From Elusimicrobia bacterium CG_4_9_14_3_um_filter_62_55 (GTDB lineage: Bacteria > Elusimicrobiota > Elusimicrobia > UBA1565), in NCBI GenBank assembly GCA_002790095.1, contig PFUL01000047.1, positions 1-64,000 of the forward strand: a stretch of DNA of 64,000 bases. The letters are read 5' to 3'. A program made the translations under genes and the position numbers. Shown piece by piece: positions 13,624 to 62,704 of this stretch (within the stretch, counting starts at the first letter, position 1; every line of letters starts with the position of its first letter). A model generated the notes under the pieces. That model did no database searches and had not been told where the DNA came from. It was given only the letters and a program-made list of their open reading frames with translations.

Positions 13624-14115
13624 TTGGGGAACAAAATGATGCCGTCAATCGTATATGTGGGTATGGAGAGTGAGGATGTTTCGGTCCTGATTAATGATAT
13701 CGGCAAGCGCATCTTTATGATTCGGGGACGACGAGTCATGCTCGATCGGGATCTGGCGGAGCTATATGGGGTTACGACGTCGAACCTCAACAAGGCCGTA
13801 AAGCGCAATAGCGACCGTTTCCCAGTTGATTTCATGTTTCATCTAACCACGATCGAGCATCGGGCTCTAAGATTCCAAATTGGAATCTTAGAGAAAGGGC
13901 GCCATTCGAAGTACTCTGCCCGTGCATTTACCGAACAAGGTGTGGCGCAAACACTTAGGACTCCCAGCGCTGGGAGTGCTAGGCCGCTTTTAAGCGCGCT
14001 GCGCTCTCTTCTCGGACAGCAGAAACGTCGCAAGCGTCAAAAGCGCAGCGCGGCCAGCGGGAACAGCGTCATCGTCATCGCGTCCCGAAGCGGCGCCTCC
14101 AACGGCTTGAACTGA
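13624..14115 (+). pseudogene. Truncated ORF6N-domain protein
   Basis: Reads as an ORF6N (KilA-N-associated) DNA-binding domain: IRGRRVMLDRDLAELYGV, LNKAVKRNSDRFPVDFMF, then AFTEQGVA. The family normally continues from GVA into MLSSVL and a further helical domain. Here similarity stops exactly where a palindromic repeat begins (13956), and the last ~50 codons are basic, repeat-derived sequence that also runs into the 3' end of the giant gene. I read it as an intact reading frame with a destroyed C-terminus. The start is uncertain: the adjacent ATGs at 13636 and 13639 do not decide it, and the domain begins near codon 20. Confidence 0.7.
13956..13981. repeat. Palindromic repeat family 2, copy 2
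   Basis: Shares the GGACTCCCAGCGCTGGGAGT core with 13557-13586 but has one mismatched arm pair (13959/13978). The 3' flank (CCGCTTTTAAGCGCGCTGCGC) is similar to that of copy 1, so the repeat unit is longer than the palindrome, about 50-60 bp. It sits inside the ORF6N frame. Confidence 0.8.
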
Positions 14116-17100: not shown

Positions 17101-20100
17101 CGCTCGCTTTGGGCCTCGATCAGACGGGCCCCGTCGGACACGGCGACCATCAACGAGTGAAGGCGCAAAGACAAAGTCTTCAGCCGGTCGCGGCTCTCGA
17201 GTTCCTGCCGCAGGGCCTCGGCGAGAATCCCCTCCAGACTGCGCTGGATGCGCTCGGGATCGGGCGCCTGAAGGAACGCCCCCGAGACCCAGCGTCCGCG
17301 GAAGCGTCCGAACGCGCCGACCGGCGTGAACCCTTTGTAGCTCATGCGTTCCGCGACGAGATTGGCCTGAAGCTGCAAAGAGGCGTTCGGCGCGGAGAGC
17401 CCGTCGGGAAGACCCTCGGGAAAAAGCGAGGAGCGCATCGCCTCGAGGTTGGTCTCTGCGATCTTGTCGGCGAGGGCGCGCGCGGCGCTCTCGGGGGAGG
17501 AGGATTCCTCGAGGGGGACGATCGCGAGGAAGCCTTCCAAGCTCAGGGGCGTCCCGATCTGCGCTGAAACCTCGGCCAGATCGCGCTCGAGGCCTTCTTC
17601 CAGACCGGCGGCCAGCGCGCGCTGCGGCTCGCCCCGACCGCGGGCCCAGCGCAGCAGCCCGGCGCGCAACCGCATGCGTCCGAGCAGGACCTTCGCGCGG
17701 CTTTCGGCGCGGGCGAGCGCGGCCCGGTGAATCTCGTCGGCCCGCTCGCGCTGCAGCGCGGCGAGCGCGAGCAAGGCCTCGGGCGGCGTGGTCCGGCTCT
17801 CGAGACGGACCTCGACCCAGCCCTCGATGAAGTCCTTATTGATCGGATCGCTTCCGATCGTTTTGCGCGCGTGGAAGAAGCGGACCCCGCCGATGGCGGT
17901 GATCGACTCGGCGTCCGGCGTGAAGCCTCCGGAACCGTCGAGGCCGGGCATCGGCTCCCGGGCGCTCAAGACGGCGACGAGACGGTTTTCGAGCTCCGCG
18001 AACGAACCCGGCGCCGAGCCGCCGTCGGAGGCGTCGCCGGCGCCCGGCTCCGCGCCGAGCATCGCGAGGCGCGCGTCGATCCGGCGCAGTTGGTTGAGCA
18101 AAAGGACGGCCTGCAGGCGCCCGTCGGCGTCGCTGCGTTCGCCTGCGATCCGCAGGGCTCGGACCGTCGTGCGGCGTTCGGCTTGCAGGCCGGCGCGATG
18201 CGCCGCGAGGCGTCCCCGGAAGTCCATCAACTCGCGTTCCGCCGCCAAGGTCGCGTGCCGGGCGCGCGCGACGAGTTCGGGGGAAGCGTCGCCGGAACCG
18301 GAGAGGGCGGCGACCAGACGTCCGAGCGAGCGTCCGATCAAGGAGACGGGGTCCACACGGATGTCCTGCACCTTGAGATTCTTGTCGACGATGGTCTCGA
18401 CCGCGCGCGCGATGCGCACGCGCTCCGAAAGCGCGGCGAGTTGGGAGTCCAGCGTCCGGTGGCGCGCGATGCGGGCGGAGAATTGGGTGAGCGCCGCGTC
18501 CGCGCCGAGCGCGGCTTCCACGGGAGCGTCGTAGGACCGCCCGAGAAGGTGGTTGAGCGCCGCGCGCAGCTGGGACTGACGGGAACGCAGCGCCGCGATG
18601 CGGAGCCTCAGCGCGACGCGCGCTTGCCCCGAGGCTCCGGGCAGCATCTCACGCTCTAAGATCGCGAGGGCTTCCTCTCCCGACTGATGCGCGCTGTAGG
18701 CTTCGAAGAACTGCAGCGCGAGATCCCCGGCGACGGTGTTCATCATGTGTCCCGCCAGACGCAGTTCGGCGCCCTGACGGCTCCCTTCCAGCGCCGCCAA
18801 CTCGGAATGCTTCATCCGCAGCGAGAACACGGGATAGACGCCCAGCCCGGTGATGCCGATCGCGGGGATCAGGGCGATCCCGGTCGCGGTGATGTTGGCG
18901 CCGATGTTCAGATCGACGGAGACCTTCTCGATGCGGCGCTCCGCGGCTTCCAGCAGCTGCGCGGCGGCTTGCGAGCGCTTCGCGAGCCCGGCGAGACCCG
19001 CGTCGCCGGATTCCACCGCGTCGAGCGTGCTGTCGAAGTTCGACACGCGGGTCGGACCGGAAGGGAGCGCGCCCTGCTCGAACAGCGAATCGGCCTGGCC
19101 GTCGTCGAGCCGGGCCCAGGCGCCCTTGAGCGCCGCGCGAACGCGGGCCTCCAAGAGCGAACGCATCGTCCAATGCCAACGGCGCAACGCGGCCCAAAGC
19201 TCGTCCTGGCGCGCCAAGCCGTTGCGGTATCGGCGGATGGCGTCGACCACGGCCTGCGCGGCGGGGGGGCCTTCCGGCTTCAACAGCGCGATCTGGGCCT
19301 CGTAGCCTTCGGCTTCGCGCCGCTCGGCGGCGGCCTTCAGCCGCGTGTCGCGATAGGTTTCGTACATCTCCATCATAATCGCGTCGCCTTCGAGTTTGAG
19401 CGCCTTGTCCCGGCGTTCGCTGTAGGGATCGTAGATGGGGACCCGGATCGAAATGCCGCCGCCCAGCACCTGGTTGGCGAGCAGATCCTTGAATTGAACG
19501 CCGAACCAAAGCGTCATCTCCTCCACCCACGGAATCCAGTCCATCAGGTTGAACGACGCCTCGGGAAGGTTCAAGGCCCCGGGAGCCAGCTTCGAGAAGA
19601 GTTCCGCCAGCGGCTTGGGCTGAGCGAGCGCGTCTCCCAAGATCACCATCAACCGGTCCATGTCGCGGGGATTGGCGTCCTCGAACGGGAACGCGGCCTC
19701 CGGCGGGCGTCCGGAGAGCATGTTGTAGCGCAGGCGCGCCTGGCGCAGGCGCGCCTCGGCCTCGATGACCTTCGCGGCGCCGTCCTTGGAAAGCGTTTCG
19801 TCCGGGCTGTTGGCGGCCATGTAGAGCGCGATCTCGCGCTCCCAGCGCGCGTTGAGGATTTCCGCGATCGCCGCCTGCCAGCGTTCGGTGAGGTCGAGAA
19901 GCCGCGTCTGCAAGAGCAGTCCGGCGGCGTAGACCCCCGCGATCCGCTTGCCGACGAGCGCCCTTTGGGTTTTCGTCATCGTCCATTCGGTCTGCGTTCC
20001 GACTTGGAAGCCGCCGCCCGCGGCCCGGTCCGCGGTGCTGTCGCCGACCGGGTTCGTCACGAAACCGACGAAGCCGCGGGTCTTGATGTTGTCGAGAACG

Positions 20101-23100
20101 GCCCCGGCCTTGCGCAGTTCCTCGATCTCGCGCGTCAACCGCCCGACTTCCAGCGTCAGCAGCTTGCGTCCCACGTCCGCCTCGAACACCCGCTTGAGCT
20201 CGAACACCAGTTGATCCTGGACTCCGTCGCGTTCAAAGAAGTCCACGAGGTCCTTATTGAACTGCGCCAGCGTCCGGCCGCCGAGCAAATCCTCCCCGGT
20301 GCGTCCGGCCACAGCGCGCCAAAGTTCGCCCAAGGTGAAGGTGCTGTTGAGTCCGATCGTCAGACGCTTGTTGAGCCCGACATGCGGACTGCCGTAGCTC
20401 ACGCCGACTTCGGTATTGGACCCCATGCGCTTTTTCAGCTCGATCAGGTAAGACGAAGCGTCCCCGAGGAACTTGCCCTCGGCCCCGAGCACGATCCCTT
20501 GGTTGGGAAGTTCGAAGCTCGCCCGCACGGTCCCGGTGTTGTACTCGGTTCCGAGTTCGCCGGTCCCGGAGACCTCGGTCCGCACGGGAACCCCGTTGAC
20601 CTCGAACGCGAAGCCCTTCACGATCGTCGCGCCGATCGTTTTCTGGTCGATGTCGTCGGTTCCCGACACCTGGGAAAGAAAAACATCCAGCTTGAAGGAA
20701 TCGGCCGTGTCGAGCGCCTGCTGCAGGTCCACGCCCACGCCGACCTTGTCGCGCCGAAAGCGCTTCGTCTCGCCTTCGGCGCCGATCACGAAATCGGTGT
20801 CGAGTCCAGGATCGTAGCCGGTGAAGTCCAGGTTGATCGTCTGGAGGAATTTCCGGGGGTCTTTCGCGAAGAGTTCGGCGTGCTCGGCGTTCAAGCTCAT
20901 GATCTTGTTGAACTTGATCGAAGACTTCAGGTTGCCGCCGGCGAAATAGGGCTGCCCCTTCGGGTCGGTCACCGAGAAGTCGCCGAACCCGGCCGCCCCG
21001 AAGTAGAGCTTGCCGTCGGCCAGCATCAGCGCGAAGTCCTCGAACACCATCATCCGCGACTCTTTCATCTGAGAGACCGTACTCAGATCGTCGGGGATGT
21101 TCTGCGCGAGCCGATGGAAGGTCACGTCGAGATAATTGACCCAGTTCTCCCCCTGAAGAGATTCTACGCGAACGGTGACGCCTTGGTCGCCGTACGGGGC
21201 GTTCGTCGCGTCCGGCGGGCTCAGGAACCGGTGTCCGACCACGCTGACGTTGTTGTCCCAAAGCTTCAGGACGTTGCCCAAGGTCACCTGGCTCGAGGTC
21301 TCCAGGCCGTGCGGCGTGGAGAACTCGCTGTTGTAGACGAGATAGAAGCCGTCCGGATCGTCGCCGATCTCCATCATGCCGGTATTGGGGAGCAGTTGGG
21401 TCAGCGCCATCGGATCGGCGAGCAGCGCCTCGCGCAGGCGCACAATGTCGCGCGCCGAGGAGTCCGGCGTGAAGCCGGCGAAGAGCTGGCTCAAAAACGA
21501 CTGGAAATTCGACTTCTTGATGATGAGCGACTGCGGCGCGTTCGGCGAGGCCGCCAGCCACGCGGGGGCGCCGAATCCGACGGCTTCGACGCGGTCGGCG
21601 AGATCCGGGGGGAGATCGCCGAGATCGACTCCCTCGAGCAGTTTCTCGAGCGAGCCGCGCTCGCCGTCGAGCGTCTTCAGCGTCTTCTGGAGCGTCCCGT
21701 CGGCGCCTTCGAAGCGGCGGCGGCTCTTATGGTGCTCGATGTTCGATTCCAGCACCGCGCGCGTGCGGTCTTGGATTTTCGAGAGACTGTCGGCGATGCG
21801 GCGCATCGCGCTTTCGTGCGGATCGTTGAGCTGGCGCAGCCATTCCTCGACGGATTTGCGCTGGTCGGCGAATTCCTTCGCGCTGTCGGAGAGCTTCTTG
21901 CGAAATTCCCGGAGCGCCTTCGCTTCGGCGTCGAGCGCCTCTCCCGAGGAATCGTGGATTTCGCGCACCGAGTCGTAGTAGCTCGCGACGTCCTCGACGG
22001 TTTCGAATCCGCCCTCGTCCCAGCCCCTTTTCGTGCGGAACAACCCCTCTCCCTCGGCGGCGATGGAGGAGACGACCCCGTAGACGCCCACCTTCCGGGC
22101 GTAGAGCGCCTCCGCCGATTCCGAACGGGAGCCGACATAGGCCGAGTCGGCGTCGAGATCGGAGAAGACTCGGTCGAGAATTCCGGAGGCCTTCAGCAGA
22201 TACGCCTCGAAAATCGGGATTTGATCTTCCAGGGACTCGCGCGACGCTTCGATGACGCCGTTGGTGAACAGATAGCGCGCGATCGTCTCGGTCAACGAGT
22301 CTCCGCCCGGGCGGTTCGTGCTTGGGACGAGGCGCTTGACGGCGTCGAGCGCGAGAATCGCGGTGTGCTGCCCGTCAGGAAGCGTCATCGGGGGCTGCTC
22401 TCCGCTGGGGATCTCGGCGCCGTCCCCGCCGACCCCGAGCCCGCCCTCTTCGGAACCGGAGGCGAGACCCTCGTCGCCGATGACGCGGAGGATTTCGGCC
22501 AAATCCTGAACCTTGCGGGAATCGATAAACGCGCGAAGCCGCGTCCCGTCGGATCCGTCCGGGCGGATGCCGGTCGGCATCGCGAAGCGGGCGATCAAGG
22601 AATGCTTTCCCTGCGTCCGCTGATCCAACTGGGCGAGGATGCCGTTGACCTCGGCGGCCGTGGCGTCGATTTGGGCGGCGCGCCGCGCGCGTTCCGCCGA
22701 GAGCTCCGCGATGCGTTGGACGAGCGAGAAGGCCATCGTCTCACCGAAGACCTCTTCGGTCTCGGCGTTGGCCGGGTCCTTGCGGCGGCGGATCTCGCTT
22801 AAGAAATCATCGACCAAGACCCGGTACTCTTGGAAATCGGCGCGCTGCTTCTCGATATTCGCGCGCGCGGCCGACGCGTCCCCTTCGGGGGCTCCCTGAG
22901 AGGCCAGGCTCCACGGCATCGTCTGGAAGTAGGAGTCGTGAATGCGCTCGTAGAGGTTCTTCTTTTCCTTAAAGAGCACCGCGTAGGAGTCGCCGGACGC
23001 GTTCGGATCGGCCGAAGCGATCTGCTCCTCCTGGAAGGGAATCATGTCGGAAACCAAAAAGCGGCGCAGGCCCTCGAGCATCGGCTTCAATTCAAAGGAG

Positions 23101-25796
23101 AGCAAGGCGCGCTTGCGGTCGATCAGCGCCTGATTGCCGGACGGGGGGAACCCCGTCCGCACGAAGGATTCATCCAAAGAAACGTCCGCGAGAACCGCGT
23201 CGACGCCCGCGACCGCCGCGCGGAAGCTCGTTCGGGCCTTCGGGAGGACGCCGCCGAGCGCTTGATCGATCGCCTCGACCGTCGCGTCGGCCTGAGCCCA
23301 GACGATGACCGCGTCTCCCAAGAACGGGAGCAGCCGCGCCGCCTCGATCTTCTCGATCTGCGCCAAAAGCGCGTCGTCGCCGTCGGGAATGGCAAGCGCC
23401 GTCAGTTTCTCCGCGAACTCCGGGAGGACCTGGCGGTAGCCCTCCACCGTGCGACCGGAAAGCGCCGGGAGAGAAGGCGCGCCCGCGGCGCTCATCGCGC
23501 GGGAAGCCTCGTCGATCGCGGCCGCGAAGCGCTGGGCGTCGGCGCGGGCCTTCTCCGCTTTTGCCCGCTCCTGTTCCTTGTAAACCGGGAGCGACTCGGG
23601 AACCGCGTCTCCGAAATCGTCGATTTCCCGGCGGGTATTGCCGGCGTCGAGCATCGCCTCGACGCCGTCGAGAGTCTTTTTGAGATCGGACCGCTCGGTT
23701 TCCCAATGCCGGCGCCGCGCCGCAAGCAGGGCGAGGACGGCCGCTGCGTCAGGGTTGGAAACCGAATACTCGGGCACCCCGGGGACGGCCGCGATCAGCA
23801 CGCCGGCGAATTCGACGGGAACGGAGTCCAACTGCCCCTCTCCGTCGCGAATCTTGGATAGCATCTCCTCGACATCGGCCAAATCCCGGCGCAGTCCGCT
23901 CAGCGAGAGCTTGGAAATGGAACCGTCCTCGTCGGGCCGTCCGTCGCGCCGCTTCGCCGCGAGTTCCGGCAGCAGCGCGAGACGCCGGTCGTATTCCGCG
24001 ACCGCCGAACCGCTCGCGCCGCCGTCGCGCGCGTCGACAAAATCGAGCAATCCCTTCACGTCGCGCCGGTAGGCGTCCAAGCGCGCGACGAGCCGCTCGG
24101 CCTCACGCGCGAGATCGGCAAACAGGACGATGTTCTTGTCGTCGCCGGCGAGTTTGTCGCGAACCTTATCCTCCCACTCCTTGCGCCGGGCGGCCAATTC
24201 CTTTGCGGCCTCGCCCTCGTCTCCGCTGCGGCGACGGCGGTCGGCGATGGCCTCTTCGCGCCGGTCGAGCAGCGCGTCCATTCGGCGAACGGCCTCCTCC
24301 GCGGCCTTCAGCACGTTGAGGCTGTAGGAAAGATCCATCACCATCGCGAGACGGGCGTAATTTTTCTGGAATTCAAGCTGATCCCGCCCGTCCCGGCGGC
24401 GGCGAAGCGCCGCGCCGCGAAGGCGATCCGCCACCGCGAGCATCCGGGCCGCGGCCTCGCGCTCGGCGACTTCCGCCTGCGAGCGGGCCTGAAGCTCCTC
24501 GACCTTGGCGACGCGCTCGCGCAAGTCCTTCTCCAGCGGAGTTCCCGCGAGGGGGGGCGTGTTCTCCGGCCCGCCCGGCAACCGGGGGCGGTCCGGGTCC
24601 AGCAGCGAAGCGACCCGTTTGCGTAAATCCTCGAGCGTCGCGCGGTCCAACTCGCCGGCTTCCGTCCGTCCCGTGGAGGCGTGCTTTGAGCGGTCGAGCA
24701 ATTGCTCGTGCGCAGCGAGCACGGCATCGACGTGCGCGACGGCTTGTGCGGCTCCGGGGATGCCGGCCAAATCGCCCTTCTGGCCGAGCTTCGCGAGCCC
24801 CGTGAGCGCGTCCCGGCTGAGGCGCAGCGCCCGAGTCTGCTCGTCCAACCGGGCTCGGACGCGCTCGGCCTCGGAAGCGTCCACCGCCGCGGCGAGGGCG
24901 GCGTGCGAAGAGGCGATCTCGGTTCCGAGTTGGGCGGTGCGCGTGCGAACGGCCTGGTACGCGCCCTCGATCGCGTCCCGCCGCGACATGGCGACGGCGG
25001 CGTCGCGGCGCCGCGGCGCGGGGGCGTCCGCGGCGGGGGCTCGGGTTTTCGACAATGCCGGGCGCGCGGTCATCGCGCGCGCCCGCGCGAGGGCCTCGCC
25101 GGAGCGGCTCATCATCGCGTCAAACGCCAGCGGTTCGGTGATCCCGAGGAGGGTGCGCAGCGCCTGCAGTTCACGCAGGGCTTCGGGTCCCGGCTTTCCG
25201 CCGCGCAGATGACGGTCGATCCATTCCCGAAGCGGGGCTTCGTCGCCGCGCGGGACGCCGAGTACCGGGAGCCGGGTCTCCGCGCCGCCGGTCGCCGGGT
25301 TCGGCGCTTGAAGTCCCTTTTCCAGCGCGAGGAGTTCGAAGCGCCGCAACAGGCCGCTGATGCCGGCGGCCTCGGCGGCGACTTCTCGGCGCCGGTTTTC
25401 ATCCAGCCCCGCGCCCCGCTCCCAGCGTTCCCGCAAGCCCGCCAACGCGTTCCACAGCCGGGCCTCGTGGTCACGGCCCCCCGCCGCCAAGTCCAGGGAA
25501 CTGCGGCGGTACGGTTCCAGTCGCCGCCCGATGGGGTCCAGCACGGCGCCTCCGGCGCCGAGAGCGGCGGCATCGGGGAGGGCGGACGCGGGGATTGCCG
25601 GCACCGAACCCGCGCCGTCGAATGCGGAAGCGGCGGCCAGGGGCACGGCGGCCTGAGTCAGCGCCCCCAGAGACGCGCGGCGCTGCGCGGCGGCGGAACG
25701 CGCCAAAACGGGGACGGGAAAACTCGAGGAGATCAGAGCGGCGGCCAACACCCAGGAGGCGCCTTTGCGGAAGGATCGGAGGTTGAGAACTCTCAT
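14037..25796 (-). CDS. Giant secreted coiled-coil protein with TolC-like segments
   Basis: About 3,919 residues from ATG 25796 (the TTG just before it is less likely). Residues 1-34 are a signal peptide (KGASWVLAAALISSSFPVPV). Residues 35 to ~1450 are charged, helical and coiled-coil-like. About 1460-1830 is beta-rich with YNSEFSTPHGLETSS and ELKKRMGSNTEVGVSYGSP. From ~1925 to ~2960 at least five units recur in which a short beta segment leads into long helices, near 1925, 2100 (GGGISIRVPIYDPYSERRD), 2290, 2630 and 2820. This is the layout of TolC/outer-membrane-factor proteins. About 3270-3600 holds short repeats (LDAEGxxxxVF...). A DADGDGALDS calcium-loop-like motif is near 3850. It lies 172 bp downstream of three kinase genes on the same strand. 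An export-channel or cell-surface scaffold role is inference. Confidence 0.75.
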   Translation of the reverse strand: MRVLNLRSFRKGASWVLAAALISSSFPVPVLARSAAAQRRASLGALTQAAVPLAAASAFDGAGSVPAIPASALPDAAALGAGGAVLDPIGRRLEPYRRSSLDLAAGGRDHEARLWNALAGLRERWERGAGLDENRRREVAAEAAGISGLLRRFELLALEKGLQAPNPATGGAETRLPVLGVPRGDEAPLREWIDRHLRGGKPGPEALRELQALRTLLGITEPLAFDAMMSRSGEALARARAMTARPALSKTRAPAADAPAPRRRDAAVAMSRRDAIEGAYQAVRTRTAQLGTEIASSHAALAAAVDASEAERVRARLDEQTRALRLSRDALTGLAKLGQKGDLAGIPGAAQAVAHVDAVLAAHEQLLDRSKHASTGRTEAGELDRATLEDLRKRVASLLDPDRPRLPGGPENTPPLAGTPLEKDLRERVAKVEELQARSQAEVAEREAAARMLAVADRLRGAALRRRRDGRDQLEFQKNYARLAMVMDLSYSLNVLKAAEEAVRRMDALLDRREEAIADRRRRSGDEGEAAKELAARRKEWEDKVRDKLAGDDKNIVLFADLAREAERLVARLDAYRRDVKGLLDFVDARDGGASGSAVAEYDRRLALLPELAAKRRDGRPDEDGSISKLSLSGLRRDLADVEEMLSKIRDGEGQLDSVPVEFAGVLIAAVPGVPEYSVSNPDAAAVLALLAARRRHWETERSDLKKTLDGVEAMLDAGNTRREIDDFGDAVPESLPVYKEQERAKAEKARADAQRFAAAIDEASRAMSAAGAPSLPALSGRTVEGYRQVLPEFAEKLTALAIPDGDDALLAQIEKIEAARLLPFLGDAVIVWAQADATVEAIDQALGGVLPKARTSFRAAVAGVDAVLADVSLDESFVRTGFPPSGNQALIDRKRALLSFELKPMLEGLRRFLVSDMIPFQEEQIASADPNASGDSYAVLFKEKKNLYERIHDSYFQTMPWSLASQGAPEGDASAARANIEKQRADFQEYRVLVDDFLSEIRRRKDPANAETEEVFGETMAFSLVQRIAELSAERARRAAQIDATAAEVNGILAQLDQRTQGKHSLIARFAMPTGIRPDGSDGTRLRAFIDSRKVQDLAEILRVIGDEGLASGSEEGGLGVGGDGAEIPSGEQPPMTLPDGQHTAILALDAVKRLVPSTNRPGGDSLTETIARYLFTNGVIEASRESLEDQIPIFEAYLLKASGILDRVFSDLDADSAYVGSRSESAEALYARKVGVYGVVSSIAAEGEGLFRTKRGWDEGGFETVEDVASYYDSVREIHDSSGEALDAEAKALREFRKKLSDSAKEFADQRKSVEEWLRQLNDPHESAMRRIADSLSKIQDRTRAVLESNIEHHKSRRRFEGADGTLQKTLKTLDGERGSLEKLLEGVDLGDLPPDLADRVEAVGFGAPAWLAASPNAPQSLIIKKSNFQSFLSQLFAGFTPDSSARDIVRLREALLADPMALTQLLPNTGMMEIGDDPDGFYLVYNSEFSTPHGLETSSQVTLGNVLKLWDNNVSVVGHRFLSPPDATNAPYGDQGVTVRVESLQGENWVNYLDVTFHRLAQNIPDDLSTVSQMKESRMMVFEDFALMLADGKLYFGAAGFGDFSVTDPKGQPYFAGGNLKSSIKFNKIMSLNAEHAELFAKDPRKFLQTINLDFTGYDPGLDTDFVIGAEGETKRFRRDKVGVGVDLQQALDTADSFKLDVFLSQVSGTDDIDQKTIGATIVKGFAFEVNGVPVRTEVSGTGELGTEYNTGTVRASFELPNQGIVLGAEGKFLGDASSYLIELKKRMGSNTEVGVSYGSPHVGLNKRLTIGLNSTFTLGELWRAVAGRTGEDLLGGRTLAQFNKDLVDFFERDGVQDQLVFELKRVFEADVGRKLLTLEVGRLTREIEELRKAGAVLDNIKTRGFVGFVTNPVGDSTADRAAGGGFQVGTQTEWTMTKTQRALVGKRIAGVYAAGLLLQTRLLDLTERWQAAIAEILNARWEREIALYMAANSPDETLSKDGAAKVIEAEARLRQARLRYNMLSGRPPEAAFPFEDANPRDMDRLMVILGDALAQPKPLAELFSKLAPGALNLPEASFNLMDWIPWVEEMTLWFGVQFKDLLANQVLGGGISIRVPIYDPYSERRDKALKLEGDAIMMEMYETYRDTRLKAAAERREAEGYEAQIALLKPEGPPAAQAVVDAIRRYRNGLARQDELWAALRRWHWTMRSLLEARVRAALKGAWARLDDGQADSLFEQGALPSGPTRVSNFDSTLDAVESGDAGLAGLAKRSQAAAQLLEAAERRIEKVSVDLNIGANITATGIALIPAIGITGLGVYPVFSLRMKHSELAALEGSRQGAELRLAGHMMNTVAGDLALQFFEAYSAHQSGEEALAILEREMLPGASGQARVALRLRIAALRSRQSQLRAALNHLLGRSYDAPVEAALGADAALTQFSARIARHRTLDSQLAALSERVRIARAVETIVDKNLKVQDIRVDPVSLIGRSLGRLVAALSGSGDASPELVARARHATLAAERELMDFRGRLAAHRAGLQAERRTTVRALRIAGERSDADGRLQAVLLLNQLRRIDARLAMLGAEPGAGDASDGGSAPGSFAELENRLVAVLSAREPMPGLDGSGGFTPDAESITAIGGVRFFHARKTIGSDPINKDFIEGWVEVRLESRTTPPEALLALAALQRERADEIHRAALARAESRAKVLLGRMRLRAGLLRWARGRGEPQRALAAGLEEGLERDLAEVSAQIGTPLSLEGFLAIVPLEESSSPESAARALADKIAETNLEAMRSSLFPEGLPDGLSAPNASLQLQANLVAERMSYKGFTPVGAFGRFRGRWVSGAFLQAPDPERIQRSLEGILAEALRQELESRDRLKTLSLRLHSLMVAVSDGARLIEAQSERLAAARGNLDAALVLAERGTIGSEEAAAAELEVAAAWNELLGTFASVRMDFIRLVTELEALGQRATGSSAGRSRPIRESGVSKKAGAVREMAAYLAERLKDADFAAQLDKLFDGSGWISAEDRTMLAVLADEYRRMERDAELVRHHPGISAEERLALLTKADVEGRRRILSARLEALVEAMSEQAGGGRRELHRWLLEDLSRQSGAAGARLKRDRDMMARVGEELFKDESAEVRSAFRRIARLERDAAYARDALLESYLEGGNRPEDFLLKDRMLDAYLTALSEFDREVVEAYGSKALRESERGARLLNSFFDLRTSAERRRRLLTRGRGLLAADALIAIEEARLAASEWNRAAPDVKRAAASRIAHLRSLRERWLARPSELPTVSAELNADGSVARWLTPADVEGLKRAGRFLEAGGSGWILPPEHAGKTASDPAALGARRIATGADAAGDRAREAERAQEARREQVSVERATRDSDFALVGPDGASRGGLSLERLRELERQGRVLYFRKNPDRRSGLRRALHPVEARMADPDSVAVYVIAEGEAPAEGRYGSLESLLGSNEAPSAAKLQSGRRGYEAFAREAESEARRSLRMGWISLKLEGYAFALDAEGRIAAVFMNDAELQKARKDPERSKGLRFHLTSAIRWGIAPGGQLAEIAVEGVERRWRFGGIPETWISGPVSAVQLDAEGALLRVFRSDKAVLEAAKGWLLEDMSGRIWDPRRGEIAPIHRLRRYLDPEARTAVRLGRSFLERRKAEAEDGLDDVDNWGTNVRNWPDIVLEIPRGIVQTPIEIITGRDPNQHGYIGRVYMYRGDGGATVRRGVFGKIVHFIDFLDILPDPVDRYQDPSQYPDRVRTDGALLPGEWVHEKDPRTAEQNIHFGTGAMRRAVQYAEEDLEDARGRILAAFQGGVRETFLETVRGRAGVYPRATLRTRVGGSAVRGVLKDAGGLVDADGDGALDSRPGHIEVDRVRADLEVRIGAEQHAERARAYREMMNQFKPLEAPLRDAMTMTLFPLAALRF

Positions 25797-25968
25797 CAAG
25801 CTGGGACCTTGAGACCCAACCAGTATAGGCCTAGGACCTACTCAGGAAATAGGGTGCTTGGACCTTCGAGAGGGTGGGCCCAAGGGCCCATAATGTCAGA
25901 CTTAAGAATGAAGAAAGAGGGGGTTTGCCCGACGGCTGGCTTAATGTCTAAAGTTCGACGCTTTCGAT
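25797..25968 (-). promoter_or_regulatory. Leader of the giant gene with GGACCT repeats
   Basis: The plus strand shows GGACCT at 25804, 25834 and 25860 (AGGTCC on the coding strand), spaced 30 and 26 bp. A TATACT box (25822-25827, minus strand) could be a -10. A tight dyad TGGGCCC-AA-GGGCCCA lies at 25875-25890. A similar GGACCT array precedes the subtilisin gene. Confidence 0.4.
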
Positions 25969-55145: not shown

Positions 55146-56332
55146 TTCGTCCCGCCGTTCTCGCGCTGGCGGTTCTGACCGCCGCCTCCCCCGCGCGGGG
55201 AAAGGGGGATTTGCTTGAAGCGGCGGATGATCCTCTGCTGCAGCAGGGACTCGTCCACCTCTACAATCTCGACTACGACCGCACGCTCGAGAACGCCCTT
55301 CAGTTCCGCAACGCTCATCCGGCGAATCCTCTCGGCCATCTCTTTATCTCGGGCGCTCTCTGGTGGCAATACACGACGGAAGCCGAGCAGATGCGGCCGG
55401 ACAACAAGTTCCTCGAACGTTTCGACGCCAATGTCGACGCGACCGTGGAAGCGGCGAAGCCTCTTATGAAGGCCGACGATAACGCAGTGCAGGCGGATGG
55501 TTTTTTCGCCGCGGGAATGGTGCTCGGCTTGCGCGGGCAGATGAAGCTCGCTAATGGAAACTTCATCGGCGCCTACCGCGACGGGAAGAAGGGCATCAAG
55601 TATCTCAAAAAGTGCGTCAAACTGGACCCGAACTACAGCGACGCTTTGATGGGCCTGGGAATCTTCGATTATCAGGTGGCCGTGCTCCCCGGCGTTATCA
55701 AGTTCGGGGCGAAACTGCTTTTCCGGGGCACCGGGGACGCCGCCCGCGGCCTCCGGCTGATCCGCACGGCGATTTCAAAAGGGCGGTTCGCGAACAATCA
55801 GGCGGCCGGGTTCCTGTTGACGATCTACATGACAAACGAGCTGGACTACCGGCGCGCGTTCGACGTCGTACAGGACATCCGGCGCAGTTTTCCCAGCAGC
55901 CCCTACTACGCTTTTCTCCACGCCGCGCTGCTCGAGCGCAACGGCAAGCCGGCGGAGTCGCGCGCCGCGATGCGCGCGCTCTTCGATCGCCTCATGACCG
56001 AGCCCGACCGTTTCGCGCGCAAGCAGTTGGGAACGATCTGCGGGCAATTCGGCCCGCAGTGCCTCGAACGAAGCCACCTCATCGCGGCGGAGCGCTGGAT
56101 CACCAACGCCCTCTCCGAACTTCAGGAAGACTCCGAGTACAAATCGATCTTGACGCTGTACCACGGCCTGACCCACGACCTGTTGGGACAACGCGAGGCC
56201 GCGATCCGCGACTTCGAACGCCTCAAGGCCCTCCCGCCCGCAGTTTCCTCGCGGGAGTGGGGGAAACGCTGCTTGGAAACGGCATGCGGGCAAGCAGACG
56301 CGATCCGCCTGCTGCGCGGCGGACGACCCTAG
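55142..56332 (+). CDS. Secreted TPR-like protein of unknown function
   Basis: A 396-residue protein with GTG start overlapping the NUDIX stop. Probable signal peptide (VLALAVLTAASPARG), then helical repeats: QQGLVHLYNLDYDRTLENAL, FFAAGMVLGLRGQMKLANGN, LKKCVKLDPNYSDALMGLGI. A central segment YQVAVLPGVIKFGAKLLF is unlike TPR and could insert in or touch a membrane. Last gene of the TRAP operon. It overlaps the convergent subtilisin gene by 4 bp. Confidence 0.7.
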   Translation: MIRPAVLALAVLTAASPARGKGDLLEAADDPLLQQGLVHLYNLDYDRTLENALQFRNAHPANPLGHLFISGALWWQYTTEAEQMRPDNKFLERFDANVDATVEAAKPLMKADDNAVQADGFFAAGMVLGLRGQMKLANGNFIGAYRDGKKGIKYLKKCVKLDPNYSDALMGLGIFDYQVAVLPGVIKFGAKLLFRGTGDAARGLRLIRTAISKGRFANNQAAGFLLTIYMTNELDYRRAFDVVQDIRRSFPSSPYYAFLHAALLERNGKPAESRAAMRALFDRLMTEPDRFARKQLGTICGQFGPQCLERSHLIAAERWITNALSELQEDSEYKSILTLYHGLTHDLLGQREAAIRDFERLKALPPAVSSREWGKRCLETACGQADAIRLLRGGRP

Positions 56333-58863
56333 CCGGCCATCGTCGTTTCCGGCGGCGGGGTGGGCTCCAGCTCGGAGCGCTCCTTGGCCATTTGGATTAG
56401 AGGCTCGACCCCGGTCGGTTCCAACTCTCGAACGAGGGTCATCGGCTTCGTCGCCCGGATTTCTTCGAGCGCCCGAACCAAGCCGTCCTCGGTATTGATG
56501 ATCCGGCCGGTCTGGGTGTCGAGCAGTCCGATCTCCGTAAGCTCGTAGCGGCGCTGCGCCTTCACCTTCTCCACGTCCTTCGTGGTCAGACGCATCGAAA
56601 GGGCGAAGGCGATGTTGCCGACCGGAATGCCGAGCTTGACGCGGTCGATCACGGCCGCCGCGACATTGCCGCCCTGCATCAGACCGGAACCCTGCTGCTC
56701 CTTGGTCTTTCCGAGATCCTTGGCGGTCTCCATCAACGCGGCCCGCACCTGGAACGCGTCGTAGTCGACGCCCTGCTCCTTAAGATAGCCGATCAAAGAT
56801 CCCGCGCCGCCCGTCACCTGAGGAGCGGCCATCGAGGTCCCCGACATCTTGCGGTAGGCCTTGTTCCCGGAGAGCGCGCACGCCTCGTCGGGGTCCTTGC
56901 CGGAACGGGGGGCGATCACGCCGGGGCCGTAGACGCATTTGCCGTTGGTGGGTTCGGCCTTGATCGAAGCCAACCGGCCGGCGGGGTCCTTCTCCGCCGC
57001 GTTTTCCACCATAATCGTCTTCTGCTCGATCGCCGACAGATCCACGTCGCCGGAAACCGCCACGATGTCCGGCTTCACATAAAGCTCCTTGCCGTCGGGT
57101 CCGAGGATCGGCCCGCGCGAGGAGAAGAAAGGAGTCTCTCCTTCCTTGTTGACGCCGCCCACGGTCAGAACGTAGCGCGCGTTGCCGGGGGAACCCACCG
57201 TGCTCGCCCACGGGCCTTCGTTGCCCGCGGCCGCGACGACCAGAACGTTGTCCTTCGCGATCAAGGTGTTCGCCATCGACCCGAGCGGATCGACGTTCGG
57301 CGTTCCGGGACCTCCCAGGCTCATATTGATCACGTCGGCCTTTGCGGTGCCTTCCTGCTGAGACGCCATCCACTTCATCGCCGCGAGGATGACGCTCTCG
57401 TCGGTCTCTCCCTCGGTTCCGAAAACCTTCGCGATTTTAAACCGCGCATCCGGGGCGACGCCCTTGTATTTCCCGTCGGACTCCTTCCCGTTGCCTCCGA
57501 TCGTCCCGGCGACGTGGGTACCGTGGCCGACGACGTCGTCGGTCCCTTCCCCTGTAAAGTCCATATAGGAAACGACGCGGCTGCGCCCTTTCTCGTCCTT
57601 CATGTCCGGATGGTCGATGTCGATGCCGGAGTCGATGATGCCGAAAATCGCACCGTTGCCGGTCATCCCGCGAGCGTTGAGGCCTTCCGCGTCGACCATC
57701 GACCGGCTCTCCACCAGCTTCGGAGAGACCCGCCCCTTCGTCTCCAATCCCAAACCGGACGGAATCGGGAGGAACTGGGCGCCCAACAGCGGCATGGCGG
57801 GAGAGGCGGCCATCGCGTCGGCCGCGGCCTTCGCGGTCGATTTGAACACCCGCGCGGGGCGGCTCATGACGCCTTCGGTCTCTTGAAGCGTCTTCCCCAA
57901 TTCAATCGCCGAAGCGAGGGGAAGATCGACGGTGACCAGATTATCGACGGCGCGCACGATTCGCGCCCCGTGACGCTGGAAGAGTTGGGCGTCGAGCATC
58001 GTCGCCTCGTAAATTTGATTCTCGCGTCCGTTCGTTTCATCGACCCGGAAAACGTCCTGATCGACCGCGTGCTTCGCGGCGACGATCACGCGGACCATTC
58101 CGGTCTTCTGATCGACTTTATAGCCCGAAAGTTCACCGCCGGTGCCGGTCACGCTCTTGAGCCCGCCCGGCTTCGCGACGGCCGTTTCGACCTGGTTCCA
58201 ATCGAAGTAGCCTATTTGATGCGTGCGTCCATCGAAGGCCGCATCGGGAGAAGTCGCCGCGGCCTTGGCATGGCTTAACTCCGCGGCGGTGCGCCCGCCG
58301 ACCGCGTTCAGACCGCCGATCTTCGGATCCGAAACGGGGCAAAAGCCGCCCTCCGCTTTGCCGCACATGATGACCGGCGCCCCCAACATCTGCTTGGGCG
58401 GGGCTTCGAGCAACTGTCCGTCCTGGGCGGTCAAAATGTCGAGAAGCGCCTGCTTGCCGAGGGGGGTCAGCACCGGTTTTCCGTTCGCGTCTAATTTCAG
58501 GAACCGGTTGTCGAAAAGTTTATCGGCGGGCATCCGGGGCGCAAGATAACTGCGCATGGCCATGGCCATCCCCGTTTCCGGATCGTCCTCCGGGAGCTTG
58601 GAGAAGAACGTCAAGAGGCGCTTCGTGACTTTGTCGCCTACCGGGCGGCCCGGACCGAGAGCGTCGGCGCCCACGTGGAAGGTGGTCCCATCCGGAGAGA
58701 CGCTCAGCCCGAGCGAGAGGCTGGTCTTGGCGATCAAGTCGATCTGAGGAGCGGAATACTCCTCCAGAAGCGCGGGGGCGAGCTTGGGAAACGCCGTCGG
58801 CACCGCGAGAACGGTCGTGGTGTTCAAGCTCACCGCTAAAATGGACGCTAGAATCCGCTTCAT
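56329..58863 (-). CDS. Secreted subtilisin-like serine protease (S8 family)
   Basis: An 844-residue protein from ATG 58863, which has GGGAGGA 4 nt upstream; the GTG codon just before is less likely. Signal peptide 1-21. Residues about 22-380 are a long propeptide-like and insert region. The S8 domain starts near 395 with Asp411 (IIDSGIDIDHPDM), His447 (VVGHGTHVAGTIGG), oxyanion Asn548 (VAAAGNEG) and Ser677 (MSGTSMAAPQVTGG). A ~90-residue insert lies between the PA-like stretch after FSSRGP and the Ser motif. The C-terminal ~100 residues are helical and Glu/Pro-rich. The triad is intact, so an active extracellular or periplasmic protease is expected. Confidence 0.92.
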   Translation of the reverse strand: MKRILASILAVSLNTTTVLAVPTAFPKLAPALLEEYSAPQIDLIAKTSLSLGLSVSPDGTTFHVGADALGPGRPVGDKVTKRLLTFFSKLPEDDPETGMAMAMRSYLAPRMPADKLFDNRFLKLDANGKPVLTPLGKQALLDILTAQDGQLLEAPPKQMLGAPVIMCGKAEGGFCPVSDPKIGGLNAVGGRTAAELSHAKAAATSPDAAFDGRTHQIGYFDWNQVETAVAKPGGLKSVTGTGGELSGYKVDQKTGMVRVIVAAKHAVDQDVFRVDETNGRENQIYEATMLDAQLFQRHGARIVRAVDNLVTVDLPLASAIELGKTLQETEGVMSRPARVFKSTAKAAADAMAASPAMPLLGAQFLPIPSGLGLETKGRVSPKLVESRSMVDAEGLNARGMTGNGAIFGIIDSGIDIDHPDMKDEKGRSRVVSYMDFTGEGTDDVVGHGTHVAGTIGGNGKESDGKYKGVAPDARFKIAKVFGTEGETDESVILAAMKWMASQQEGTAKADVINMSLGGPGTPNVDPLGSMANTLIAKDNVLVVAAAGNEGPWASTVGSPGNARYVLTVGGVNKEGETPFFSSRGPILGPDGKELYVKPDIVAVSGDVDLSAIEQKTIMVENAAEKDPAGRLASIKAEPTNGKCVYGPGVIAPRSGKDPDEACALSGNKAYRKMSGTSMAAPQVTGGAGSLIGYLKEQGVDYDAFQVRAALMETAKDLGKTKEQQGSGLMQGGNVAAAVIDRVKLGIPVGNIAFALSMRLTTKDVEKVKAQRRYELTEIGLLDTQTGRIINTEDGLVRALEEIRATKPMTLVRELEPTGVEPLIQMAKERSELEPTPPPETTMAG

Positions 58864-59065
58864 CACTTCCTCCCAGGGAGGTCTCCGAGGCCTCGCTGCC
58901 CCAAGGACCTATCCCAAAGATACCCGAATGCCTTATATGGGCAAGTTCCAGTAGACCTATGGGGTCATTACCTAAAGGACCTAGATTGTGTCCAAGGCTT
59001 TACGAAGGATTTACCCTTGCGCGGATTCGTCTTGAATTTGAAACACAACGCCCGTACACTCCACG
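58864..59065. promoter_or_regulatory. Divergent intergenic region with GGACCT motifs
   Basis: GGACCT occurs at 58905 and 58977, and AGACCT at 58953, on the plus strand (AGGTCC/T reading toward the subtilisin gene). They have spacings of about 48 and 24 bp, resembling the array upstream of the giant gene. The promoter for the plus-strand FliF-FliG-like gene is listed separately. Confidence 0.4.
59032..59060 (+). promoter_or_regulatory. Promoter of the FliF-FliG-like operon
   Basis: TTGAAT (59032-59037), a 17-bp spacer and TACACT (59055-59060), only 5 nt before the ATG at 59066. Confidence 0.55.
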
Positions 59066-60466
59066 ATGGATATGTCCTTAATTTTGACCCTGTTGACCGC
59101 GGCTGTTTTCGCGACGGATGTGATGCCCGTTTCGGATGAGGGAGATCTCGGAGACCGGGCGGCGTTCGAGCGGACGCTCGAAGCAAAGATCGACGCAGCG
59201 CTTGACGCGATGCTCGGACCGGATGCGGCGCGCAGCTTCGTCCGGGCTTCGGTCGAAGAGATTCCGGAAAGCGGCGGACGCTCTCTTTCCAACGATTCCT
59301 CCGATGAAGCGGCCCTCTGGGACGAGATCCGGGGGAAGCTCGACGACCTACCGCCGGTGCTTCCAGGCTATAGGATTCCGCGCTCCTTAAAAGCCGAGGT
59401 TCTTTCCCGGGTCGCCCAAGCCGCGGCGCCGCGGCGCGTCGAGAGTCGAAAACGCACCGTGTTGACCGTCTCGCTGCTCGTTGATGAAAGCGTCGAGGCG
59501 AAATCGCTCACTCCGGCGACCGCCGCGCTCGCCCACGCGGTCGGTCTCGACCCCGACCGGGGGGACATCCTTCAAATCACTCGAACCCGGCTGAGACCGA
59601 CCTGGGTTTCGCTAATCCGGGGGGAACGCTTCCGCGGCTTTGCGCTCGCCGCGTTCTCCGTGGCTCTCGGCGCCTCGCTTCCGCTTTTGGCCGCGTGGTT
59701 GCTCTGGAAGCCCGGAAAACGCACCGAACCGGAAAAGAAAGTCTGTTCGCAACCGCTGGAAGCGCCGCCCCTCGACGCCGATTTCAATCCGATCCCGTTC
59801 TGGAACGACGCGCGCTACGCGAGGGCCGTCGCGGATTTTCTTGCCCACGAGCCGCCGGAAGCGGCGGCCGCGGTTCTCTCCCTTCTTACCTATGACGCGG
59901 CCGGCGACGTCTTCCGTCTGCTCCCGGAGGCGGCGCGGCGCGGCGTGGCGGCGCTCTTGGCCGCGGAAAGCGGCGTCGGGGCCAAGGACCTCTTTCACAC
60001 GGGCCAGTTGCGGCGTCGCCTGCGGGAGCATTTGGCCTCCTACGCGCGCGGCCCGGGACTGCTCGAAGAATTGCTGTTGCGCGCCCCACAGCCGCTGCGG
60101 GACGGCCTGCTCGGAGATTTGCACCGCGTCGATCCCGACGCCGCGCGCCGGATCCGGCGCGCGGTGCCTTCGTTTCGCGATCTCGCGAGAGCCGATGAAA
60201 ATTCCCTGCGCCTGTGTCTGAGCGTTCTCTCGACCGCCGACTTAGTGCGCGCGCTGTACGATTTTGATCCTGCCCCGCGGGAAAAGATGCTCGAATCCCT
60301 CCCGATTCTACTCCGCGAGGAAATTCGGGAGCAACTGCGCTCGTTCGTGCCCGACTCCATGGAATCCGTCGAAACGGCGCGATCCCGCATTACCGCCCGC
60401 TGGCGGCGCCTCGAACGGGACGGCCGGGTGAGCTCGTTGTTATCCGCTTCGGCGGATTCCGCTTAA
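59066..60466 (+). CDS. FliF C-terminal/FliG-like fusion protein
   Basis: A 466-residue protein. A short hydrophobic N-terminus (about 3-17) may be a signal. Residues about 30-175 look like the membrane-proximal ring-building part of FliF: FERTLEAKIDAALDAMLGPD, then RKRTVLTVSLLVDES and ALAHAVGLDPDRGDILQI. A membrane helix follows (about 190-213). Residues about 243-450 resemble FliG middle and C-terminal domains: PEAAAAVLSLLTYDAAGDVF, LLEELLLRAPQPLRDGL, ALYDFDPAPREKMLESLPIL. In flagella FliF forms the MS ring and binds FliG, the rotor switch. Here the two are in one chain, RBM1/RBM2 are missing, and no other flagellar gene is nearby. MgtE-N-type helices are an alternative reading for the middle part. 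Confidence 0.72.
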   Translation: MDMSLILTLLTAAVFATDVMPVSDEGDLGDRAAFERTLEAKIDAALDAMLGPDAARSFVRASVEEIPESGGRSLSNDSSDEAALWDEIRGKLDDLPPVLPGYRIPRSLKAEVLSRVAQAAAPRRVESRKRTVLTVSLLVDESVEAKSLTPATAALAHAVGLDPDRGDILQITRTRLRPTWVSLIRGERFRGFALAAFSVALGASLPLLAAWLLWKPGKRTEPEKKVCSQPLEAPPLDADFNPIPFWNDARYARAVADFLAHEPPEAAAAVLSLLTYDAAGDVFRLLPEAARRGVAALLAAESGVGAKDLFHTGQLRRRLREHLASYARGPGLLEELLLRAPQPLRDGLLGDLHRVDPDAARRIRRAVPSFRDLARADENSLRLCLSVLSTADLVRALYDFDPAPREKMLESLPILLREEIREQLRSFVPDSMESVETARSRITARWRRLERDGRVSSLLSASADSA

Positions 60467-60515
60467 TAAATCGGCAATCCTGCACCATTATCCTCATACA
60501 GTCCCGGGGACGAAT

Positions 60516-61541
60516 ATGTCCGAACAAGACCCCTATCGAGATTGGCTCGAAGAATTCAACCGCGAGGTGGACCAGGCTCTGCAGGAGTCGGGTACCGGGG
60601 CGGGCGGGCGCGCACCGGTCGCCCGCGCAATGACCGATTTCGAATCGTGGTGGCGGCACCAAGACACCGATTTGGACCACGATCCCGATCCGGGACTCGA
60701 AAGCGCGCAAATCAACAAGGAACTCGAATTCGCCCGGCGCGAAGTCCTATTGCTCAAGGGGGAACTCGAGCGCCTTCGCGGGAAGGACGGCGTCGCCGAG
60801 TCCGCGCGCAGCGCGGAGCGAGTTCGCGAACTCTCAGAAGAGAAGGCCCGCCTGCACGAGAAGGCGCGCCGGCTCGAACAGGAGAACGAGGAACTCCACC
60901 GGCAAGACGCGGCGCTGCAGAGTCAAATCGCCGATCTTCGCGTGCAAACCTCGAAAGCCCACGACGATTACGAAAATCAGATCCGCCGGCTCGAGGATAA
61001 GAGCAGCGGCCTCCAGGAGCAGATACGCGCCCTGACCGAGAGTGAGAAATTTCTACAAGCCGAGTATGCCAAGCAAACCGAACGCTTGGCGCGGTTCGAA
61101 AGCGGGCTGAAAGACGCCTACGAGGTCAAGAGCCGCTGCGAAAATGAGAACCGCGAACTTCAGGCCCGCATCGAAGACCTTGAGGCCCGGCTCAACGAAG
61201 ACGCCCAACGCCAGTCGGAACTCCAAGGCGCGCTCGGCGAACTGCGTTCGCAGGCCGGCAGCCTCCAGGAGAAGCTCGTACGGGGCCGTGAGGCCGTGGA
61301 CGCTCAGTTGGCCCAAACCCGCGCGGCCACGCTCGACTCGGCCCGTCAAACCGAGGCGTCCGAACGCCGCCTTCTCGATCAGCAGCGCGAAGCCGAAGAC
61401 CGCCTCCGCGAAACCACGCGCTATCTCGAACTGAAGCTCCGCGAAATGCAGAGCGAGAACAAGGACCGTCTTTGTGAATTCCGAGAAGTCCTCGACGCGC
61501 TTTCCCGCCTTCGGGTCTCCCGCACCGGAGAGAATCGGTGA
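60516..61541 (+). CDS. Coiled-coil protein, partner of the FliF-FliG-like fusion
   Basis: A 341-residue protein with no signal peptide or membrane helix, so probably cytoplasmic. After an acidic head (about 1-65) nearly the whole chain is heptad-type coiled coil (LKGELERLRGKD, RLEQENEELHRQ, LQARIEDLEARLNED). It starts 49 bp after the fusion gene with GGGGA upstream of the ATG. It overlaps the next gene as GTGA, so all three are probably co-expressed. No family is recognised. Confidence 0.75.
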   Translation: MSEQDPYRDWLEEFNREVDQALQESGTGAGGRAPVARAMTDFESWWRHQDTDLDHDPDPGLESAQINKELEFARREVLLLKGELERLRGKDGVAESARSAERVRELSEEKARLHEKARRLEQENEELHRQDAALQSQIADLRVQTSKAHDDYENQIRRLEDKSSGLQEQIRALTESEKFLQAEYAKQTERLARFESGLKDAYEVKSRCENENRELQARIEDLEARLNEDAQRQSELQGALGELRSQAGSLQEKLVRGREAVDAQLAQTRAATLDSARQTEASERRLLDQQREAEDRLRETTRYLELKLREMQSENKDRLCEFREVLDALSRLRVSRTGENR

Positions 61542-62704
61542 AATACTGGGTGTATCTCAACGGCGAGGTCCCCGGCAGCTACACGCCGGAAGAACTGGTC
61601 GGTATTCCAGGGGTCGGGGAAACGACGATGGTCTGCCCGTCGGAGGGGGGGATCGAGGAACGCAACTGGCTGCGCGCCGGACAATTCCCCGACATCCTCG
61701 ACGCGATCCGCCGCCTGGAGCGCCCGCCGACGGCGCCCCAAGCGCCGATGCCGCGCCATGACATTGACCCCGGACGCCCTCTCGACCCCAACGATATTCT
61801 CAACGACTCGAGCAGCCGTCTCTTCCGGCACGTCACCGACTTGATGAAGGAACTCGAAAACCGCCGCGCGGAACGGGCTATGACCCAATCGCTGCAGCGG
61901 CAGGTCATCGAACTGAAGAACGAAATTCTCGCGATGCGCGAGCGCAACCAATACCTTCAGGACCGCGCGGATCTGATCCCCGGGTTTCAGGACCGGGAGC
62001 AGCGGCTGACGAAGGATTTTGAAGCCCTGCGGCAAAAGCTTCAGGAAAGGGAAGCCCAGCTTCGCGGCGCCGAAGCGGATTTGGGTAAGAACAAGGACGC
62101 GCTCGAAAAGGCCCGCCGAGTCGAGTCGTCGGCCGCCGAAGAGCTCAAACGCCAGGCCGAGGTCATCGAAGACCTTTCCGGACAGTTGGCGCAAAAAGAA
62201 TTCACATTGGCAAAGGCGTTCGGAGTGATCCGGCGCCTCGAGGAAGTCATGGGAGACCTGCTGCCCTCGACGGTCTCCGGGATCTCCAGCGAAGTTCCGG
62301 GCTATAAGAACGAAGAGGCGCCCCCTCCGCCGCCTCCCGAAGACCCGCCGATTCAGGTGCGCACGCGCGTTTCGGAACCGGAGCCGGAGCCGGAACCCAA
62401 GCCGGAGCCGCAGCCGGAACAGGAACCGGAGCCCGTTTCGGAATCTTCGGGAAGAGGGCCGGAACCGGACCCGGTGATCCAGGAACTCGCCTCTTCCTCA
62501 TATACGGCCGATACCGGGGAACCCTGCAACCCGATGGACCTGCCCGCAGAGGGGGAGGTGACCCCCGTCCCGCCTCCATGGACGAAACTCGTGGAACGCT
62601 TCTCCGGCTTCATAAAAAAGAGCTTCTCGGGAAGCGCTCCGCCAGAACCGCCTTCCGCGCAGGCCCCCCCGGATTCGGACGACAAAACCCCTGATCAAAA
62701 CTAG
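61538..62704 (+). CDS. GYF-like domain coiled-coil protein
   Basis: A 388-residue protein with GTG start overlapping the previous stop. Residues 1-60 resemble a GYF_2 domain: WVYLNGEVPGSYTPEEL and ERNWLRAGQFPDI. Residues about 85-245 are coiled coil. About 265-320 is low-complexity Pro/Glu (EPEPEPEPKPEPQPEQEPEP). A last segment near 345-365 is weakly amphipathic (KLVERFSGFIKKSFSG). GYF domains bind proline-rich ligands, and the protein carries its own Pro-rich stretch, so self-association or partner docking is possible. The role is unknown; it is linked by operon to the FliF-FliG-like fusion. Confidence 0.75.
   Translation: MKYWVYLNGEVPGSYTPEELVGIPGVGETTMVCPSEGGIEERNWLRAGQFPDILDAIRRLERPPTAPQAPMPRHDIDPGRPLDPNDILNDSSSRLFRHVTDLMKELENRRAERAMTQSLQRQVIELKNEILAMRERNQYLQDRADLIPGFQDREQRLTKDFEALRQKLQEREAQLRGAEADLGKNKDALEKARRVESSAAEELKRQAEVIEDLSGQLAQKEFTLAKAFGVIRRLEEVMGDLLPSTVSGISSEVPGYKNEEAPPPPPPEDPPIQVRTRVSEPEPEPEPKPEPQPEQEPEPVSESSGRGPEPDPVIQELASSSYTADTGEPCNPMDLPAEGEVTPVPPPWTKLVERFSGFIKKSFSGSAPPEPPSAQAPPDSDDKTPDQN

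Follow-up and report, generated by a model that had tools for sequence, protein, structure and literature searches.

A FliF-FliG fusion gene outside any flagellar locus in an Elusimicrobia genome and its probable kinship with a phylum-wide family often linked to MotA/MotB

The usefulness of a partial flagellar motor is a long-standing question, and a gene of Elusimicrobia bacterium CG_4_9_14_3_um_filter_62_55 raises it directly: what does a protein built from flagellar rotor parts do where there is no flagellar locus? The gene, termed here FusW, lies in the window, by which we mean the whole 64,000-nucleotide stretch that was analysed (contig C32 of a 4.31 Mb draft genome of 202 contigs, 95.4% complete). 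A sequence-only reading had described its product as a single chain of 466 residues in which a portion of FliF, without RBM1 and RBM2, is joined to FliG. Both points hold: a hydrophobic N-terminus, FliF RBM3, a membrane helix, FliG_M and FliG_C follow one another in one polypeptide, and RBM3 is all that is present of FliF.

59066..60466, + strand: FusW, FliF(RBM3)-transmembrane-FliG(M+C) fusion, 466 aa (Pfam, AF2 model, Foldseek)
59066..59131, + strand: hydrophobic N-terminus, about aa 1-22, either a signal peptide or an anchor (hydropathy 1.81 over aa 4-22)
59147..59590, + strand: periplasmic RBM3/S-ring domain, aa 28-175 (alignment, AF2, Foldseek)
59624..59707, + strand: transmembrane helix, aa 187-214 (hydropathy, AF2 helix)
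59795..60046, + strand: FliG middle domain, about aa 244-327 (Pfam, phmmer)
60119..60430, + strand: FliG C-terminal (torque) domain, aa 352-455 (Pfam, phmmer)

The FliG half was recognised directly, with Pfam matches to FliG_C (E 1.5e-15, 57.8 bits against a cut-off of 23.3) and FliG_M (E 1.1e-7, 32.4 bits against 25), and residues 242-455 align with the FliG middle and C-terminal domains in a phmmer search of solved structures (best E 1.8e-11). The other profiles expected from the sequence-only reading fared less well: MgtE_N (E 2.2e-5) fell slightly below its cut-off, YscJ_FliF_C (E 0.0026, 18.7 bits) fell below its cut-off of 23.8, and GYF_2 had no direct match in the neighbouring gene considered below. 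Weak when taken alone, the FliF identity of this part is secured through three paralogues in the same genome that pass the YscJ_FliF_C cut-off (C119, C106 and C90) and through the predicted fold. In the AF2 model (38-row alignment, mean pLDDT 82.7), a periplasmic domain of alpha-beta-beta-alpha-beta order is followed by a long helix spanning residues 187-214 and by the helices of FliG, and Foldseek matched the model to FliG (1lkv, E 8e-9) and to FliF RBM3/S-ring entries (probability about 1.00, E 0.01-0.03). FusW thus has the FliG_M and FliG_C of a flagellar-type rotor and, by way of its paralogues and the model, the S-ring domain as well; the LPG and RGD motifs of its RBM3 are kept across much of the fusion family.

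That the fusion stands outside any flagellar locus is also borne out. Genome-wide, FlhA/SctV (PF00771) had no match at E<=10, canonical FliF with RBM1/RBM2 (YscJ_FliF, PF01514) had none at E<=1, and the best FliM/FliN match (PF01052) was at E 0.51, below cut-off; controls were positive in each case, and no flagellar neighbour genes were seen at the fusion loci read in this genome. With FliG significant, FliF supported by paralogues and fold, and FlhA, FliM/N and canonical FliF not found in the genome, the findings that could have undone the sequence-only reading did not appear. Because the genome is a draft, an absent gene could fall in a gap, but the whole flagellar set could hardly be lost at 95% completeness.

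FusW is not the only such gene in its genome. Searches with the FliG_C and YscJ_FliF_C profiles located four more fusion-type loci, which lay beyond the scope of the earlier reading; at the three that include MotA and MotB, the channel prolines and membrane aspartate of the stator proteins are present.

C119: barrel gene, fusion with a TPR tail, coiled coil, FlbD (1.6e-21), MotA, MotB
C106: giant protein, barrel, histidine kinase, fusion, coiled coil, MotA, MotB
C198: fusion, MotA, two MotB
C90: TPR, fusion without FliG_C, coiled coil; no MotAB

Two further candidates were set aside, a FliG_C-like match on C73 that resembles an MgtE-type transporter and, on C101, a short frame. Elsewhere in the window, a MotA_ExbB family gene (11517-12131, + strand; the top PF01618 match of the genome, 4.4e-32), next to a short gene, is probably of the ExbB/TolQ type, and an ORF of 3920 codons occupies 14037-25799 on the - strand.

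Such genes are widespread in the phylum: FliG_C passed its cut-off in 151 of 341 Elusimicrobiota genomes (95 of the 192 good ones), and FlhA was found in five (three of the good ones), four of which also have FliG_C. This distribution bears on the proposal, made for the chlamydial FliF-FliG, that such a fusion is part of a type III secretion system, here an unrecognised one. Chlamydiaceae, which have an injectisome, do carry a natural FliF-FliG fusion (PMC4768692), but with no FlhA/SctV homologue in the FusW genome, and one in so few genomes of the phylum, we consider this explanation highly improbable for FusW. In the congener G001 (78% complete), contig C59 (L118:2889-5881) encodes a complete FlhA as well as a gene of the MotB type and has a GC content like that of other G001 contigs; G001 may be a close relative with a flagellum, or the contig may be foreign.

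Contig scans found no relative with the FusW protein as query, and the matches obtained in named genomes with an alignment of the TPR-tailed fusions (type A, the commonest locus type) were all to Elusimicrobia or Elusimicrobiota MAGs. Among plasmids, no record spanned most of the fusion architecture; the matches listed covered the FliG part only, were to ordinary FliG where annotated, and were rejected.

The synteny survey took in 69 loci besides the window, 70 sequences in all, in which RBM3 and FliG are joined in 62 frames. Among the 40 fusions not of the window type that have 8 kb of downstream room, MotA and MotB follow on the same strand in 27 and on either strand in 31, leaving 13 without a same-strand pair within 8 kb. 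None of the six fusions of the window type (W), the window locus included, has a stator gene within 8 kb, and FusW thus lacks the linkage of rotor and stator genes expected of a MotA/MotB-driven motor. At type A loci (n=25) the fusion has beside it a gene for an outer-membrane barrel and, in many cases, one for a giant secreted protein: a barrel lies upstream in 21 of the 22 with room, a giant protein upstream in 14 of 21, and MotA and MotB downstream in 10 of 16, counts that are approximate because the barrel label comes from weak UPF0164/Toluene_X matches and the profile also catches TPR tails. Several of the giant proteins have a C-terminal FlgD_ig domain. In four relatives (L068:6318-9548, L069:9026-11542, L070:8100-10667 and L072:6753-9620) one chain combines a histidine kinase with the rotor, a sensor built into the rotor, and genes for the barrel, MotA and MotB lie close by. 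Where a type A fusion has no MotA/MotB in its vicinity, a protein of about 1600-1870 residues can follow it immediately (L095-L099); the one that was scanned, in L097, has a C-terminal TPR.

Conserved synteny of this kind also weighs on the idea that the fusions are left over from a flagellum of their ancestors, with FusW in decay. Such an origin would suit the persistence of FlhA in five genomes, one of which (G166) holds a stand-alone FliG of 320 residues together with a FliG frame that, at 640 residues, is as long as a fusion, and decay would suit the W branch, which is long and has lost FliG_M in one member. We nevertheless think it quite unlikely, given that the open frames are conserved, that several paralogues occur per genome, that the link to stator genes is maintained over many families, and that the W genes stay together in two families (f1 and f3).

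Five FliG torque residues, in E. coli numbering K264, R281, D288, D289 and R297, were mapped onto the fusions by way of the Thermotoga sequence. In FusW these positions read Y, L, E, Q and S; only the equivalent of D288 survives (as E), and the conserved torque charges of a flagellar-type FliG_C are not there. Among the other fusions (n=57), D288 is D or E in 46 and K264 is K or R in 35, R281 is kept in five and R297 in none. On the stator side, MotA at fusion loci retains both channel prolines (42/42 and 41/42) and MotB its membrane Asp; at loci that bear FlbD, the MotA R90 equivalent is K or R in 16 of 16 and E98 is Q in 9 of 16. The EHPQ motif, with which FliG binds FliM, is eroded in the fusions (E-P-P-E in FusW), which agrees with the absence of FliM. 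In E. coli, MotA R90 pairs with FliG D288-D289 and MotA E98 with FliG R281, pairs whose numbering is that of PMC12505986. Of these contacts, R90/D288 is largely kept, and E98/R281 is lost on the rotor side and in part on the stator side, a pattern that fits, but does not prove, a real yet altered rotor-stator contact.

FusW could in principle work as a rotor by sharing the MotA/MotB of C119, C106 or C198, since three such sets are encoded in its genome, its FliG_M and FliG_C fold is intact and its D288 equivalent is kept as E. The loss of the K264, R281, D289 and R297 equivalents, and the lack of a stator gene within 8 kb of any of the six W fusions, make this unlikely in our judgement. The tree likewise sets the W-type fusions, found in f1 and f3, apart on a long branch (0.81, support 0.999); at the base of all fusions support is 0.078, so that their single origin is poorly supported. 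With its long branch, no nearby stator gene, most torque charges lost, and FliG_M deleted in the W-type relative in G004, the window branch is derived. In-frame TGA codons noted in f3 fusions most likely reflect matches that overrun the true stop, where the open frames end, and were discounted.

The neighbours of FusW offer another view of its role. The sequence-only reading had placed two coiled-coil genes behind the fusion in one predicted operon, and spacing agrees, with a 49-base gap between FusW and the first gene (WCC1) and a 4-base overlap between WCC1 and WCC2.

56329..58866, - strand: divergent subtilase (S8) (Pfam Peptidase_S8, 2.3e-48; synteny)
60516..61541, + strand: WCC1, coiled-coil protein 1, 341 aa, without a TM segment (ORF, Pfam scan, alignment, hydropathy)
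61538..62704, + strand: WCC2, GYF_2-like N-terminal domain, coiled coil and Pro/Glu-rich tail, 388 aa
62750..62776, + strand: CIRCE-type operator before groES, TTAGCACTC-N9-GAGTGCTAG (sequence)

The CIRCE-type operator marks the end of the fusion operon, so that groESL is probably transcribed as a unit of its own. WCC1 carries conserved Y.D...F.R.VD and WW motifs at its N-terminus. The GYF-like domain proposed for WCC2 was reached only by way of its relatives: Pfam gave no GYF_2 match in WCC2 itself, but did so at the same place in relatives with a homologous N-terminal domain (best E 1.7e-5, 24.9 bits against a cut-off of 25.8), which makes 'GYF_2-like' a fair, if indirect, label. The predicted model of WCC2 had no meaningful fold match, and relatives of full or nearly full length occur in about forty f1-f3 genomes. 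A GYF_2-like N-terminal domain also heads proteins of ~600-800 aa throughout the class (L135-L140 and many genomes), often two per genome, several of which seem to resemble one another at the C-terminal end as well and to contain a membrane segment.

The suggestion that the coiled-coil proteins are dedicated cytoplasmic extensions of the fusion is weakened by this comparison. The three genes do stay together in f1 and f3, but in genomes of the sister family f2 the WCC1-WCC2 pair adjoins groESL with no fusion upstream. The pair is therefore older or broader than its link to the fusion, and sharing an operon with FusW need not mean working with it. In several relatives, unlike at the window locus, a TPR gene separates the fusion from WCC1. 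Upstream, related genomes preserve the subtilase beside the fusion, a synteny that need not mean joint function.

Cumulatively, these results make it probable that FusW is a derived paralogue of a phylum-wide, flagellum-free FliF-FliG family, its ring now a scaffold or accessory structure, with stator-linked sisters that are ion-driven. Proteins of the family most likely form a ring in the inner membrane, crowned by FliG on the cytoplasmic side, and where MotA/MotB genes adjoin, ion flow would turn the ring in the absence of an export gate or switch complex. In type A, the rotor would be connected with a barrel in the outer membrane and in many cases with a giant secreted protein, which makes a gliding-like or surface-moving role plausible. 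FusW itself would most likely have kept ring formation while torque generation drifted away, so that it would now be an accessory ring or a scaffold in the membrane, with WCC1 and WCC2 perhaps at its cytoplasmic face. The repurposed ring scaffold of the sequence-only reading therefore survives in a FliF-FliG ring encoded by a genome without export or switch genes, not as a one-off but as a member of a phylum-wide family usually tied to MotA/MotB. Because of that tie, 'rotor' may be literal for the family; with most torque residues lost and no stator gene nearby, rotation is least likely for the FusW copy. More tentatively, Elusimicrobiota may possess a widespread ion-driven rotary machine, a minimal FliF-FliG ring turned by MotA/MotB, that drives outer-membrane and surface proteins and not a flagellum, with the window branch as a static or accessory scaffold.

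To the question of what a partial motor is for, these fusions add a concrete, phylum-wide candidate: a rotor/stator module without an export gate, which was duplicated several times in each genome and has outer-membrane genes joined to it. The searched literature on FliG-like proteins, on FliF-FliG fusions, on MotAB without a flagellum and on FliG/MotA in Elusimicrobia contained nothing on this family. Its nearest precedents are the fusion in Chlamydiaceae (PMC4768692) and a survey (PMC12199754) in which 11% of non-motile species had rotor proteins but no filament proteins, and which raised the possibility that such proteins serve another function.

With the flagellar rotor (FliF MS-ring and FliG, with MotA/MotB), the fusion shares RBM3, the second membrane helix, FliG_M and FliG_C, and the sister loci likewise encode MotA/MotB with channel prolines and a membrane Asp. 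It differs in that its FliF lacks RBM1/RBM2 and is joined to a FliG without the FliG_N domain, that its torque and FliM-binding residues are altered, and that its genome has no FliM/N, export gate (FlhA) or canonical FliF. The Chlamydiaceae fusion is likewise natural and found in bacteria not thought to be flagellated; the accessible text of PMC4768692 describes two of three globular domains kept, only the middle region of FliG, and the presence of FlhA and an injectisome, and no stator linkage is seen there, unlike at the Elusimicrobiota sister loci. Type 9 secretion/gliding and other 5:2 rotary motors (PMC9389320) belong to the same ion-driven motor superfamily. SprA_N (PF14349) had no match in the profile search, in which no control genome was positive either. 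The type A loci, with a barrel of UPF0164/FadL-like kind and with giant proteins, of which several have FlgD_ig at the end, come near to the Type 9/gliding motors; they differ from them in a stator of the MotA/MotB type and in the presence of a FliG-type rotor.
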